Shown here: positions 7,283 to 49,375 of the stretch, one piece after another
How positions within the stretch are numbered: the first letter of the stretch is position 1
How the letters are laid out: every line of letters begins with the position of its first letter
Origin: Verrucomicrobiales bacterium
Lineage (GTDB): Bacteria > Verrucomicrobiota > Verrucomicrobiia > Limisphaerales > Palsa-1400
Assembly: GCA_003138485.1 (NCBI GenBank)
Contig: PLGF01000154.1
Span: 16,783-71,592 of the forward strand
DNA: 54,810 nt
Reading direction: 5' to 3'
Notes under the pieces: model-generated
The model's database searches: none
What the model was told of the DNA's origin: nothing
What the model saw: only the letters and a program-made list of their open reading frames with translations
Program-made: the position numbers and the translations under genes

Positions 7283-9303
<2,021 letters not shown>

Positions 9304-16191: not shown

Positions 16192-16354
16192 AAGCCGGAG
16201 CAGTCAACGGGCCAAACCAGGGAAAATGACCAATGACGAAATCCGAATGACGAAAGAATTCCCAAATGACTCAATGACGAAATGGCCGTCCGGCGTACCT
16301 TAGTCATTCGGGCTTCGTCATTCTTTCGTCATTGGTGCTTAGACATTAGTCATT
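16192..16354 (+). repeat. interspersed fold-back repeat, copy 1
   Basis: About 160 bases shared with 18677-18835. Both start with a gcagtcaacgggc block, then a series of aatgacgaa units, and end cattagtcatt. The left half (aatgacgaaagaat) and right half (attctttcgtcatt) are reverse complements, so the RNA or single strand would fold into a long stem. No coding capacity. It sits between two convergent genes (cca and xseA), which is typical of small non-autonomous elements or extragenic palindromes. Confidence 0.8.
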
Positions 16355-18676: not shown

Positions 18677-18835
18677 AGCCCGCGCAGTCAACGGGCAAAA
18701 CCCGGAGGACAGGGGAAAATGACGAATGACGAAAGAATGCTCAAATGACTCAATGACGAAAAATAACCGTCTGGCGCGCATTAGTCATTCGGGCTTCGTC
18801 ATTCTTTCGTCATTAGTCCTTGGACATTAGTCATT
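18677..18835 (+). repeat. interspersed fold-back repeat, copy 2
   Basis: Second copy of the element at 16192-16354, same orientation. It shares the gcagtcaacgggc flank, the aatgacgaa/ttcgtcatt arms and the terminal cattagtcattcca, with a shorter left arm. It lies directly upstream of the metallophosphoesterase gene, so it may carry or disturb that promoter. A third partial end (agacattagtcattccag) is at 30803-30820. Confidence 0.8.
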
Positions 18836-19229
18836 CCAGCGCGGTTTGAGCGCCGCGCGGCTCGCATCGCTTCAAAACCCACGAGGCAGCGGATCAATGG
18901 ATGTTGCGGATGACCGCCCGTTAAATGAGCTTGAATCGCGCGAACCGCCCCTTGAACAAAAGATGCGGGTGCCCTGGTTTTTCCCCGGCAATGGTTTGCC
19001 CTGCGCGGCGAAGGGCCGCCCCATTTTTGAGCGGCGTCGCCGGAGTCATTCACCCCTCAGAAAAGCCAACGAGGCGGGGTGTTATTCCTGGACTTCGGTT
19101 GCTTTTTGTCAGACAAGATTTGGTTAGCGGTGGCTTGCAATGTTACCCGAATGTGACACTGGGGCGGCGAGAATGTGGTATGAACGAGTGAACGGGATCG
19201 AATCCACACGATTCACAGGAGACACTGCT
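18836..19229. other. intergenic stretch, no gene seen
   Basis: About 390 bases after the repeat and before the start of a decayed secreted-protein gene. I find no protein-like frame. The final 20 bases contain a good ribosome binding site (cacaggagacactgct) that belongs to the decayed gene at 19230, so its promoter should lie in the 19080-19210 part. Confidence 0.5.
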
Positions 19230-30802: not shown

Positions 30803-30820
30803 AGACATTAGTCATTCCAG
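30803..30820 (+). repeat. partial end of the interspersed fold-back repeat
   Basis: agacattagtcattccag matches the right ends of the repeats at 16354 and 18835 but no other part of the element is present. It lies between the lplA-like gene and the secreted protein gene and may be a deletion relic. Confidence 0.5.
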
Positions 30821-44734: not shown

Positions 44735-45079
44735 CTATGGAGTTGACCCCACTGATAAGAGATTTGGGACGAATTTGTTTAGAGCGGCTTCGCGCTGTTG
44801 GCAGGGGGTGCCGGGCTTTAATGCGCCAGTTTGTTTGTCCAAACAGTCCAGGTTGAGCGCCTGGCCGATGGGTCCGGCTACTTTGTGGATGGCGTCGCCG
44901 AGGCCCAAGGCGTATTGGGTTCGGATTGTTTGCCAGGCTCCGGGGGTGAAGCTCACGTAGCCGGTGACGGGGTCTAACTTACCCAGCTTTAGGCAGGCGT
45001 CCAGGTAGCCGGGTTTGCGCAAACTGGCTTTGGCTTGGAGGCTGGTTAAAGGGCGGATGAGTTTCACAAGCCCCTCCAC
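44735..45079 (-). CDS. hypothetical phage-block protein
   Basis: 114 residues, not recognised. It has two Cys near the end (LNLDCLDKQTG and TPCQQREAALN) and an N-terminal LVKLIRPLTSLQAKASLRKP stretch. It overlaps the C-terminus of the XRE gene (45064-45079) and is 4 bases from the tape-measure-like gene. This tight packing is typical of a phage operon. No signal peptide or membrane helix. Confidence 0.6.
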   Translation of the reverse strand: MEGLVKLIRPLTSLQAKASLRKPGYLDACLKLGKLDPVTGYVSFTPGAWQTIRTQYALGLGDAIHKVAGPIGQALNLDCLDKQTGALKPGTPCQQREAALNKFVPNLLSVGSTP

Positions 45080-45717
45080 AAGCCTCTCCTTCGCAGGTCC
45101 GCTTTCATCTCCCCCAACTCCTTGAGCGAAGGTGATGACAGCAACTCCCGCTTTAAGCCCGCCAGTCGCTGCAACTGCTTCAATTCCTCCTTCTCTTCGG
45201 AGCGAATCGTCTTTGTCGCCTTCTTCTCAATCAGGCAGCGCCGCCGCCTATTCGTGGCGCCCCAGTCCCGCGTGATGGCGACATAATCCGCCAAGGATTT
45301 TGGCTCGCCCTCACCTCGTTCCTCTCCCCCAGGGAGAGGAGGGACTGTTGGAGGCTCGCCTTCCGCCTTCCTGAGCATCTTGAGCAAGGACATCACCTTG
45401 TCTAAGTCTGCGCCTTTCAATTTGGCCAACTCGCGGGCAGGGATCTCAACCTTGGGATCGACGATTTCTGGCTGCGCCGTCGTGACCCAGGAGATGCTGA
45501 CTCCATATATTTCGCAAAACTTGGTCAATTCCTCCGCTGAAACGAGTCGCCCCCCTGCCTCAACCTCCGAAATAGTTGGACGCTGAAATCCAAGCAGTTT
45601 TGCCACCTGACCTTGGGACAGGCCAGCATGTTCCCTCGCCGACCGAAGACGCTTGGCAATGGCAGCAGGGAGAGGAGGGATTGTTGGCGGTGTGGTACTC
45701 CTTTTTTTGTTTTTCAT
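45064..45717 (-). CDS. XRE regulator fused to a charged C-terminal domain
   Basis: 217 residues. An N-terminal Pro-rich lead (PPTIPPLP) precedes a Cro/CI HTH: RLRSAREHAGLSQGQVAKLL then GFQRPTISEVEAGGR. A spacer (PPTVPPLPGGEERGEGEPKS) follows, then a charged helical domain (CLIEKKATKTIRSEEKEELK, LQRLAGLKRELL). A DNA repeat encodes both PPT-PPLP pieces (22 of 24 bases match, 45331-45354 and 45667-45690). The helical tail resembles standalone small proteins in other genomes, so this may be a fusion. ATG 45717 overlaps the stop of the upstream gene (ATGA), tying the regulator into the structural operon. Confidence 0.75.
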   Translation of the reverse strand: MKNKKRSTTPPTIPPLPAAIAKRLRSAREHAGLSQGQVAKLLGFQRPTISEVEAGGRLVSAEELTKFCEIYGVSISWVTTAQPEIVDPKVEIPARELAKLKGADLDKVMSLLKMLRKAEGEPPTVPPLPGGEERGEGEPKSLADYVAITRDWGATNRRRRCLIEKKATKTIRSEEKEELKQLQRLAGLKRELLSSPSLKELGEMKADLRRRGLWRGL

Positions 45718-46436
45718 GGGTCTTCGTCCCCGGTGAAGGGGTCTTGATGGTTGCCGTAGCAGGCGCCTTTGTTCCAGCCGCTCGCCAGTGTTGGCTCGTG
45801 ACAAGGGGCGAGGGGGCTGCCGGATACACAGGCGGCCACTAAGGCGGCTAATGTCGCGAAAGGGTTGACCGTGGTGATGGTCTTCAGTGGATTATTCAAG
45901 CATACATAACGGACAATCATCATGGGGCAGGCAGGGGAGCATGTGTTGTTTGGGGGCAACGCGGGAACGCCGGTTTCGATCCAGTCGCCGCCGCAACCGC
46001 CGATTTGGCCGCTGCATCCTTGAAGTATGATTGGGCGGTCGCAACTTGTATAGGCGGCGTTATTGAAAACGGTAGTTGCAACGTCGATGATGCTGTATTG
46101 GACGGGGATGTTGATGAAGTATTGGTTGCGGATAACGCCGGGCAGGCCATAGCCTGTAATTGAAAAATTATTACTACGGCAGGTGAGACCGCCGTATCCT
46201 GTTATTGAGCCGATTCCCCCCGAGGTTTGTGTACCGGCAGCGTTGAAATAGGCGTAGTCAACCCGGTTCCAAGCCAAAGCGTCCAGATCGTAATCAGCGA
46301 CATAGGCGGCGACGGCGGTGTCGGAGTAGGTTCGGCATGTGCCTGAGCCGTGGACGGAATCGTCCGGGCTGGCTTTTACCCCGCGAATACTATCCGGGAC
46401 GGTCGAAAGGCTGCCTATGTATGAGCCGCAGGGCAT
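45714..46436 (-). CDS. Cys-rich hypothetical phage-block protein
   Basis: 240 residues, unrecognised. It holds 13 or so Cys, many in a Gly/Pro-rich stretch: ILQGCSGQIGGCGGDWIETG and PPNNTCSPACPMMIVRYVCL. A beta-rich profile with repeated GYG and NN motifs suggests an extracellular or virion protein stabilised by disulfides. No signal peptide is seen. The stop overlaps the XRE gene by 4 bases. Such Cys density is odd for a phage tail protein made in the cytoplasm. Confidence 0.6.
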   Translation of the reverse strand: MPCGSYIGSLSTVPDSIRGVKASPDDSVHGSGTCRTYSDTAVAAYVADYDLDALAWNRVDYAYFNAAGTQTSGGIGSITGYGGLTCRSNNFSITGYGLPGVIRNQYFINIPVQYSIIDVATTVFNNAAYTSCDRPIILQGCSGQIGGCGGDWIETGVPALPPNNTCSPACPMMIVRYVCLNNPLKTITTVNPFATLAALVAACVSGSPLAPCHEPTLASGWNKGACYGNHQDPFTGDEDP

Positions 46437-46474
46437 GGTTAGGCGGGAAGGCCGCTGGCGACTTCCGGGTGGAT

Positions 46475-46562
46475 GGTTGGATTCATCGAAAAAGCCTTAG
46501 TTTCCGACCATTCCCGCACGCGTGCGGGAATGGTCGGAACGTGGTTGGATTCATCGAAAAAG
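46475..46562. repeat. 38-bp perfect palindrome between two 20-bp direct repeats
   Basis: The direct repeat ggttggattcatcgaaaaag is at 46475-46494 and 46543-46562. Between them 46502-46539 is a perfect palindrome with two 19-base arms (left arm ttccgaccattcccgcacg) and no spacer. The right repeat covers the end (FR and stop) of the gene at 46551. The hairpin could serve as a transcription terminator for that gene on the minus strand, as a T5 run follows within about 15 bases, or be a recombination relic. Confidence 0.85.
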
Positions 46563-46745
46563 TTCTTGTTTGCGGCACTGCTGGAGTTTTTCAATTGCCT
46601 TGGACGCCTCATTCAAACGCTCCATTGTTATTGCTTTGTAATCGCGCCCCCACTCTCTCTTTTTGAGATCAATTATAAGGTCTGTGAGCACGGAGTCTTT
46701 CTCCATGTCCGTCATTATCGTATGGCGCTCAGGATTTCTGTTCAT
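46551..46745 (-). CDS. small hypothetical protein in the phage block
   Basis: 64 residues, highly charged and helical: DLIIDLKKREWGRDYKAITM, ERLNEASKAIEKLQQCRKQE. No family recognised. It lies 8 bases downstream of the 873-residue gene, and its 3' end carries the direct repeat described at 46475-46562. A small regulator or assembly factor is possible; nothing specific can be said. Confidence 0.6.
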   Translation of the reverse strand: MNRNPERHTIMTDMEKDSVLTDLIIDLKKREWGRDYKAITMERLNEASKAIEKLQQCRKQELFR

Positions 46746-46753
46746 AATTTTTG

Positions 46754-49375
46754 TTAGGCGGGAAGGCCGCTGTTGGGGTTGCCGCTCGTCTTATAGACGG
46801 GGCTGGCGAGCATGAGTTGGTAGGCTTGGACGCTCACGCCACTGCCGTCAAGGTAGCAGATCGGGACTTCCACCAATTTGATGTTGCCGGAGTAGCTTTT
46901 GGCGTCGGCGACGTCGAGCAGGATGTTGGTGACGCCGTTGGTGAGTTGAAGCGCGCCGGAACCCACAAGCTGCGCCAGGCCATAGATAGAGCCGCCTGAG
47001 CCGTACTGGACGTTGACCGTGGGAACCTCTTGCGATCCGAGGCCACCGTAGCTGGCCTGGCCGCTGGGGCGGAGGTCCTGCGTGATGCCGGGGAAGCCGC
47101 TGCCGGCGTAGGCGGAGGCGTTAGTCTGGCTGTCGGCCAGGTTGAAGTGTTGGGTGTTGACCAGGTCCTGCTGGACGCCACGCCCGCCGCCACGCTGCGC
47201 AACGTTGGTGGATGTCTGGCCGCCTGGGCCTTGGTTGACGCTGTTGCCCATGTTGCCGCCGATCAAATAGAAGGTGCGCGGGCCGCGGTTGGCGCGGTTC
47301 ATGGCGACGATGTCGGCGGCATCGAGGTGTTTGGCGGGGCCGTAATCGACATGGGTTGCGCCTGCATCCCAATCCTCTTCGATCTGTTGGACGAGGGCTT
47401 GCATCGTGGCCCATTCGGGGTTGTTGCTGCCGATGAAGTTGAGGAGGTTGCCGGGTTGGATTTGGCCGGTGCATTCCGGCTCCTGGATGTCGAGTGAACC
47501 TTCAAAAATCGGCGCGCTTTCAAGGCGCAAAACGTAGCCGGCCAAACCGAGTGGAACAAGTTCGCTGGCGCCGACCAAGGTGATGGTTTGCGGGCTGCTC
47601 CAACCGCTGCTTGAAAGCATGATTAAAGTGGCGTGCACGCGGATTTCATGGCTCTGGGTTTGCTTGGTCTGCACCGTGCCGCCGGAGATCGTGGCGACTT
47701 CCTGGTAGGCCATTTGCGCGACAATGGTGGCCTGTTTGATGATGGGTGAGGCGGTGGAGATTTGTTGCAACCATGAGGGGATCGCATTGTCCTGGAGAAT
47801 GTAACCGAATTGCCCGGAGCCAGTCCCGATATGGCTGGTAATGTCAGCGCCGGAATCGTCAAGGACTGTCACGCTGGAGCCGGAATAAAGGGCCAGCGCC
47901 GTGACGGTGGCGAAAGGTTTGTGGAGGAATTGCCACATCGCCAGCGCGGTCGCGTTCGTGGAACCCGGATAGGCGGGATCCGCCAATGAAATTGGCAGGC
48001 TGTTAATCACGCAAGAGATGCTGCTTCCACCTTCCATGTTGAGCGTGGCTGTTTTATTGCCGGAGAACCGCGCCATGTTTTCCAGAACCGCGCCAGCGCC
48101 GCCGGAGGAATAGGATAACCCGCTTCCCGGCCAGCCGCCCGCCAGGCTGCCGATATTTTTCAAGGCGCCGGCGACTCCGACGCCTTCCACGACTGAGCCG
48201 CCGACGTAAGCGGCGATGTCATGTAACACGCCGGTTTGCTGGTTGCCGTTGTTGGTCGTGGTGATGCGGAAGTTGAGATCGACCGCGGCCGGGATGAGGT
48301 CCGTGCGTTTGCGGGCATTGGTGGCTTTGACATAACAAGGCCCGGTGGGACCTGCCAGGACGCCGGAGTTCTGCGGTGGGAATGGGAAATTGACTGTGCC
48401 CAAGGCATTACCAGCCGGGCCGCCGTCGCGGGTGCAAATGCGCAAGGTTGGCGGGGTGACGACGACGCCTGCGCCGTTGACGACAACCAGGTCGTAGTCG
48501 GTGTAAATGACCACGCTGCCCATGAACGCGGCGAGCCATTTGGCTTCGTAGTTGATAGCCTCGGCGCAAGTGATGTCGTTGACCGTGTTGAGCGGGGCGC
48601 GGAGCACTGAGCCGAGTTCGGCTCCAAGAAGCGTGGCCGTGGCGGCGGCTCCCGTGCCGCTCATCGCGCCAGTCTTGCCGGACTGCGCGAAGCCAGGCAC
48701 GTAATCGGGCACCACGCAGGCGGCGGTCCCGGAGAGGCTGGCAACCAAGTCCCAGTTGACGCCGTCGTTGGCGGTCGTGAGAACGTCAAAGGCGAATTGG
48801 TTGGCTCCCTTCTCCAGGTTGCTGACGCCTATCGCGTATTGCACGATCTGGATGAGGGTCTGGCGGATGCTCATCAGGTTTGTCGCGCTGCTGCCCGCGA
48901 CGGTGTTCTGCGGGCCGATGAGAGAATTCACGCTGAGGCCGAGGCAGACCTGGTCGCGCCAATCGGCGACGTTGGCCGTGCCGTTCCACGTGGCCCAGAG
49001 TTGGCGGAATTTGACGCGCGTGAGCCATCGTTCCCAGATGCCAAGAAAGCTGTATTGGAAGAATTCGCCAGCCGGGGTGATGATGCGTTTTGGATCGGCG
49101 GCCCATCCAATGAAGCGGATTTGGCCGCCCGTGAATTGGGAGCAGCCGCTGACCGGCAGCCCGGACGGGAGCGCCGGGGCGGAGGCGATGCGGCCGCTGC
49201 GGATGATGATCTGGGCGTCGTAAGGGAAGGGTTGGGCGGAGTCGGCGGCGGTCGTGGCAATGGTGAGCGTGACTTTGTCCTGGGACTGGTTGGACCACTG
49301 CTTGCTCCCGGCGGTGATCTGCCGGTCGGCAAAGGTGAGTTCAATGCCGTTGTATTGGAGCGTCCAGTAGGTCAT
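46754..49375 (-). CDS. large phage tail hub/baseplate-like protein
   Basis: 873 residues. The N-terminus MTYWTLQYNGIELTFADRQI and a beta-rich first 250 residues look like a tail hub start. A central region is Gly/Ser/Thr-rich, and near residues 620-700 a tail-hub-like segment appears: GSLDIQEPECTGQIQPGNLL, WATMQALVQQIEEDWDAGAT then HVDYGPAKHLDAADIV. A VDYGPxxHL element of this kind is what I recall in hub proteins of Verrucomicrobiota phages. There is no signal peptide or membrane helix. It overlaps the downstream stop region of the small membrane protein gene by 4 bases. Function is inferred. Confidence 0.55.
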   Translation of the reverse strand: MTYWTLQYNGIELTFADRQITAGSKQWSNQSQDKVTLTIATTAADSAQPFPYDAQIIIRSGRIASAPALPSGLPVSGCSQFTGGQIRFIGWAADPKRIITPAGEFFQYSFLGIWERWLTRVKFRQLWATWNGTANVADWRDQVCLGLSVNSLIGPQNTVAGSSATNLMSIRQTLIQIVQYAIGVSNLEKGANQFAFDVLTTANDGVNWDLVASLSGTAACVVPDYVPGFAQSGKTGAMSGTGAAATATLLGAELGSVLRAPLNTVNDITCAEAINYEAKWLAAFMGSVVIYTDYDLVVVNGAGVVVTPPTLRICTRDGGPAGNALGTVNFPFPPQNSGVLAGPTGPCYVKATNARKRTDLIPAAVDLNFRITTTNNGNQQTGVLHDIAAYVGGSVVEGVGVAGALKNIGSLAGGWPGSGLSYSSGGAGAVLENMARFSGNKTATLNMEGGSSISCVINSLPISLADPAYPGSTNATALAMWQFLHKPFATVTALALYSGSSVTVLDDSGADITSHIGTGSGQFGYILQDNAIPSWLQQISTASPIIKQATIVAQMAYQEVATISGGTVQTKQTQSHEIRVHATLIMLSSSGWSSPQTITLVGASELVPLGLAGYVLRLESAPIFEGSLDIQEPECTGQIQPGNLLNFIGSNNPEWATMQALVQQIEEDWDAGATHVDYGPAKHLDAADIVAMNRANRGPRTFYLIGGNMGNSVNQGPGGQTSTNVAQRGGGRGVQQDLVNTQHFNLADSQTNASAYAGSGFPGITQDLRPSGQASYGGLGSQEVPTVNVQYGSGGSIYGLAQLVGSGALQLTNGVTNILLDVADAKSYSGNIKLVEVPICYLDGSGVSVQAYQLMLASPVYKTSGNPNSGLPA

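Follow-up and report, generated by a model that had tools for sequence, protein, structure and literature searches.

We describe a perfect, spacer-free 38-bp palindrome just past the stop codon of a small gene, gene B, in the window (the whole stretch of 54,810 nucleotides analysed here), enclosed by two nested pairs of exact direct repeats, an inner pair of 21 bp and an outer pair of 20 bp. Palindrome and repeats together are far beyond chance, and the locus looks like a single insertion scar with a strong RNA hairpin rather than a member of a mobile family. The account that we prefer, and to which we give about an even chance of being correct, is a one-time insertion of 47 bp carrying the palindrome, with duplication of 21 bp of target, at the 3′ end of a moron-like gene B within a prophage block. 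The locus thus offers a clean example of a perfect palindrome with direct repeats at a gene boundary where the gene has been left unbroken.

Geometry and rarity of the palindrome and its repeats

Read along the minus strand, the order is gene A, gene B, palindrome, and gene D (Table 1). Re-computation of the palindrome bore out the first-pass annotation, in which it had been described as perfect and without spacer over 38 bp. That annotation had also placed two exact 20-bp repeats around it, with the right one covering the stop codon of a gene; the copies are indeed exact and the stop codon indeed covered (TGA at 46553-46551, closing the 64-aa frame of gene B), whereas the length is 21 bp. These inner copies lie 68 bp apart from start to start, and their likeness continues weakly past the exact part (33 nt at 85% overall); beyond the repeat, 8/30 and 12/30 flanking bases are alike, giving no clear homology. 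The palindrome is separated from the left copy by 7 nt (46495-46501) and from the right copy by 2 nt (46540-46541).

The outer pair, which the first-pass annotation had missed, encloses both gene B and the palindrome, and its flanks are likewise without clear homology (8/30 and 5/30 bases alike). The gene B segment that it bounds measures 295 bp, and GC content between the outer repeats is 47%, against 62% in gene A and 57% in gene D. Each of the two repeats is a copy of the 3′ end of the gene that precedes it upstream. Two short reading frames accompany this arrangement: the 23-codon frame that runs across the palindrome is probably a by-product of the duplication, and the 15-codon frame ends within the outer left copy, two bases before the start of gene D. 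Such nesting would be expected had an accessory gene entered between two phage genes, with a smaller insertion at its end either afterwards or simultaneously.

Table 1. Coordinates of genes, repeats, palindrome, and short reading frames at the locus (positions in the window)
Feature	Position	Strand	Remarks
Gene D, 240 aa	45714-46436	-	starts 2 nt past the stop codon in the outer repeat
Outer repeat, left copy, 20 bp	46438-46457	+	just upstream of the gene D start
15-codon reading frame	46439-46486	-	ends SGLPA; starts at the ATGA of the inner left copy
Inner exact direct repeat, left copy, 21 bp	46474-46494	+	repeats the gene B end found in the right copy
23-codon reading frame	46483-46554	-	crosses the palindrome; ATGA overlap with the gene B stop
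Putative insert, 47 bp	46495-46541	none	7 nt + palindrome + 2 nt, between the inner repeats
Perfect palindrome, 2 x 19-bp arms, 0 spacer	46502-46539	none	arms 100% complementary
Inner exact direct repeat, right copy, 21 bp	46542-46562	+	last codons and stop of gene B with overlapping ATGA
Gene B, 64 aa	46551-46745	-	45% GC; accessory gene inside the outer repeat pair
Outer repeat, right copy, 20 bp	46753-46772	+	3′ end of gene A (SGLPA codons plus stop)
Gene A, 873 aa	46754-49375	-	39% identity to a homologue on contig C184 of the same genome

Several comparisons show how rare this geometry is. Among 200 first-order Markov sequences of window size, zero-spacer arms never exceeded 12 bp, and palindromes of 19 + 19 bp are expected at ~4e-7 per window and ~4e-5 per genome. 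We surveyed 63 stretches totalling 1,048,854 bases from the 4,750,225-base genome (four pairs of stretches overlap, so that ~13 kb in total were counted twice; the 593-base stretch L010 was omitted here and taken in by a preceding survey of 371,930 bases), and found only three other zero-spacer palindromes with arms of at least 10 bp, none of them with arms beyond 10. A one-contig genome from the same order, sampled over 800,000 bases, had zero-spacer arms of at most 14 bp. When perfect palindromes with arms of at least 10 bp and spacers of up to 10 were considered across both samples (1.85 Mb), the one described here was alone in having a direct repeat longer than 11 bp within 60 bases on either side. 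Strong hairpins per se are not unique in this genome, because long stems with short loops exist elsewhere, e.g., on contig C46 (L056:1462-1517), where a 4-nt loop closes a perfect 26-bp stem that lies outside listed reading frames and is prolonged by imperfect pairing. Short ATGACGAA/GTCATT-type repeats adjoin that stem. The window itself carries dispersed TCGTCATTCTTTCGTCATT-type repeats (16244-16333, 18723-18839, and 30804-30820) and, at 7287-7402, a TPP riboswitch (RF00059, 60.4 bits).

Given repeats of this length, we considered whether an assembler, faced with a self-complementary sequence and with short repeats close in length to a small k-mer, might have taken a wrong path and thereby created the arrangement. 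The assembly is fragmented (194 contigs), both repeats fall at 20-21 bp, and elsewhere in the assembly, on contig C192, a palindrome with 23-bp arms is interrupted by a central NN, all of which would suit such an artefact. The locus, however, is free of N, the reading frames and their stop/start overlaps are intact on both sides, and two independent misjoins would be required. Isolated direct repeats within 600 bp numbered six at 20-21 bp and three at 18-19 bp in the 1.05-Mb sample, and one and zero, respectively, in the single-contig control (flank filter of 13/30 matching bases here and 14/30 in another survey; CRISPR repeats of L009 were removed from the own-genome sample, and those of the control genome were kept). 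The six include the two from the window itself, one within integron attC-like sites, and two tandem 20-mers, so that the surplus does not clearly point to an artefact; once the window's pair is set aside, repeats of 20-21 bp barely outnumber those of 18-19 bp (four versus three). We regard an assembly artefact as improbable.

Probable prophage setting of genes A, B, and D

The homologue of gene A sits on contig C184 (L044, L066) in a second prophage, together with genes for a portal, a major head protein, and a helicase (PHROGs). Because that homologue lies in a phage block, this end of the window is most likely a prophage region as well, truncated where the contig stops. Genes A, B, and D matched no family in Pfam, PHROGs, or NCBIfam at E 0.001; the best weak match of gene B was to PHROG 5478 (function unknown; E 0.006). 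On C184, the frame directly behind the gene A homologue resembles a sigma factor (from its translation, read by eye), and the 1.0 kb between the paralogue and the contig end contains neither gene B nor gene D nor the palindrome. Neither gene B nor gene D has a second copy in its own genome.

Relatives of the three genes are scarce. For gene A, we found none in viral contigs, genome contigs, or phages, whereas 13 of 387 genomes of the phylum, including its own, gave a match, distant and partial in the remaining 12. Gene B occurred in its own genome only among 97 nearby and 387 phylum genomes, with no relative in viral contigs or phages. Gene D was likewise confined to its own genome among the 97, with none in viral contigs or phages, and the 387 genomes yielded its own copy plus three weak matches whose frames contain stops. 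The gene B segment would be a moron-like guest that came to lie between A and D; on C184, where gene D is lacking along with gene B, the two neighbours are not seen side by side.

Searches for relatives of the palindrome and for a recognition site

If the palindrome belonged to a mobile element, further copies should be found, and the first-pass annotation, which had proposed the insertion of a palindromic element, suggested looking for it across this genome and related ones. That search went against an element: the 26-bp core has no second copy at up to three mismatches in the genome. The 201-bp region and 20 bp of the inner repeat likewise matched their own locus only (at up to three mismatches for core and repeat), and the 19-bp arm recurs in the genome at three sites, all with three mismatches and none with two or fewer. 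The locus region matched nothing in 57 further genomes belonging to the same order, nor in phages and plasmids. Exact searches of viral contigs (38-mer and 19-mer arm) and of genome contigs from 84,980 species genomes (32-mer) returned no copy, from collections in which the genome of the window and its closest neighbours may be missing. A 19-mer of the inner repeat did match four viral stretches, which we take to be coincidences, as three share flanks with one another and none does with the window. No other genome searched carries the locus, and hence neither an empty site nor a conserved copy was seen.

A MITE-like palindromic mobile element leaving a 21-bp target duplication would account for the geometry, and passages of PMC2229807 report that Yersinia YPAL/RU-2 elements leave duplications of 3 to 26 bp. 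Such elements are, however, recognised by several dispersed copies, and the palindrome core, with three mismatches allowed, was found just once in 4.75 Mb, with nothing in the 57 genomes and no exact copy in viral or species-genome contigs; its symmetric ends, moreover, stand 7 and 2 nt away from the duplication instead of abutting it. A mobile palindromic family is unsupported by these searches, and we rate this explanation as very unlikely. What survives of the initial proposal of insertion with target duplication is its geometry, an exact 21-bp repeat around 47 bp, and not the recurring palindromic element. Since two 21-bp repeats around 47 bp with the palindrome have the geometry of an insertion with target duplication, and YPAL-like elements form an abundant family, a single event without a family is favoured.

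Perfect dyad symmetry, together with an HTH regulator gene close by (45064-45804), would also suit a site recognised in DNA or RNA: the operator of a dimeric regulator, a site for recombination or replication, or, at the RNA level, a solitary repeat unit imitating a CRISPR repeat. For the recombination or replication site, which the first-pass annotation had offered as an option, no positive evidence emerged. Against all of these stands the lack of any further site elsewhere in the genome, even with three mismatches allowed, and we assign the three readings jointly a very small probability.

The CRISPR reading was weighed more closely. An array in genome G076 (L101:19379-19956) has a 29-bp repeat of the type TTCCCCGC...GCGGGGATGG, with a core that resembles the centre of the palindrome. 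Local alignment of the palindrome core to the CRISPR repeat of a genome from the same order scored 11, which 1 of 500 shuffled palindromes equalled, in a comparison made post hoc. Yet the own genome, at 89.67% completeness, yielded no type I-E Cas6e (TIGR01907; the control matched in 2 of 14 genomes) and no exact repeat of that CRISPR pattern, and the best Rfam CRISPR family, at 13.3 bits, fell short of its gathering score of 36. All 18 Rfam matches fell far under their gathering scores and were mostly microRNA hairpins. We rejected a CRISPR-repeat mimic as a post hoc likeness unsupported by Rfam, a Cas6e match, or genome repeats, and a solitary CRISPR repeat (RNA anti-CRISPR) as well, the core having no second site at up to three mismatches and therefore not matching the genome's array on contig C172. 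The C172 array (L009:1-1102) lies 15.7 kb before the window, runs from the contig's first base, and comprises 16 exact 36-bp repeats and 15 spacers, none of which matched fully in the DNA stretches compared (best, 17 nt with one mismatch).

An integron is present on contig C192 (L087:2387-4371), with attC-like sites bearing GCCTAAC/GTTAGGC boxes, NN inside two attC-like stretches, and an integrase gene matching TIGR02249 (277 bits against a cut-off of 265). At the locus, an attC site or cassette was rejected: four GTTRRRY boxes were found and no RYYYAAC partner within 46301-46900, and the absent attC R'' box also counts against a recognition site of this kind.

RNA hairpin, proposed insertion, and comparison with known systems

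Transcribed alone, the palindrome is predicted to fold into a 16-pair hairpin with a 4-nt loop (-32.0 kcal/mol), and in a 96-nt context the z-score is -5.7. The stem begins 11 nt past the gene B stop on the same strand, and a GC-rich stem-loop thus lies beyond the stop codon, as in an intrinsic terminator; the U-tract directly past the stem is missing, as the adjoining 8 nt read ACTAAGGC on the minus strand (one T) and CGTGGTTG on the plus strand (three T). A TTTTT does occur on the minus strand beyond those 8 nt and belongs to repeated coding sequence. For perfect hairpins in the sample with arms of at least 10 bp, 4 of 41 had at least five T in the following 8 nt, and the palindrome is not one of the four. 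For lack of an adjacent U-tract, we rejected a canonical intrinsic terminator. The hairpin may still end or protect the gene B transcript, either by forming a barrier at the RNA 3′ end or by weak termination.

It is conceivable that the hairpin was selected as a working terminator or RNA-stability element of a moron-like gene B and that the repeats are incidental. Phage morons are known that bring along a promoter and a terminator of their own, and the position of the stem behind gene B and its folding energy in and out of context are as such a role would have them. No T-run adjoins the stem on either strand, however, the consensus scan gave no listing for the palindrome, and the 21-bp exact repeats and perfect spacer-free symmetry would be left unexplained. 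The scan, which covered sigma-70-type promoters, listed no sigma-70-like site upstream of gene B. We consider selection as a terminator rather unlikely.

Under the single-insertion account that we prefer, 47 bp with the perfect palindrome would have inserted at the 3′ end of gene B and 21 bp of target would have been duplicated, by which gene B, its stop, and its ATGA restart would have been preserved. The gene B segment would have entered between genes A and D earlier or jointly, with a 20-bp duplication of the end of gene A at its bounds. Both repeats would be duplications made at insertion, either by the filling of staggered ends or by nascent-strand fold-back with strand switching, and probably not by a family-specific transposase. 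The hairpin in the transcript could now be an RNA 3′ barrier, a weak terminator, or without role. A 21-bp exact repeat, as a target duplication would leave, is present; it does not abut the palindrome, and no genome searched offered an empty site for comparison.

A bolder version would derive the two nested events, that of the 47-bp insert (21-bp repeat, end of gene B) and that of the 295-bp segment (20-bp repeat, end of gene A), from one unrecognised insertion mechanism that targets gene 3′ ends in this prophage and restores the stop by a duplication of ~20 bp, with the palindrome as a minimal passenger. We think this very unlikely to be correct; if it is true that the nested 20-21-bp repeats share one origin, they would represent a small, unnoticed route of gene addition to prophages. 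Passages of PMC1762429 describe how direct-repeat misalignment at a palindrome can be stabilised by a hairpin and cause deletion, so polymorphism at the locus would be expected within the population.

Among known systems, fold-back template-switch insertion comes close. Fold-back synthesis in rad27 yeast is described, in the portions of PMC5677150 concerned with it, as yielding new perfect palindromes together with duplications, and it has in common with the locus the new perfect palindrome, the direct duplication, and the single site. In contrast to those systems, the locus has no known ancestral quasipalindrome, and in a simple fold-back-and-return, as those portions of PMC5677150 present it, the duplicated part would on our own reading include the arm, whereas the second repeat copy here has no arm after it. 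An outside source for the first arm, or the fill-in of a staggered break, is therefore needed, and no such source was found in the own genome at up to two mismatches. With integron cassettes, the locus shares the first seven bases of both outer repeats, GTTAGGC, the core box of the integron on C192; it differs in that the attC partner box is missing, the outer repeat extends 13 nt past the box, and the box needed to close a cassette around gene B lies on the side opposite to where its 3′ end points. The YPAL elements outlined in passages of PMC2229807 are ~168 bp long and abundant, whereas the insert here has 47 bp and was found once; common to YPAL/RU-2, as those passages describe them, and the locus are a palindrome, a variable target duplication of up to 26 bp, and a possible effect on the upstream transcript. 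Unlike a phage moron, finally, the locus has no U-tract, no promoter-like site listed upstream of gene B, and exact 20-bp repeats as bounds, but it shares with one a small, low-GC gene between two phage genes and a hairpin just past the stop.
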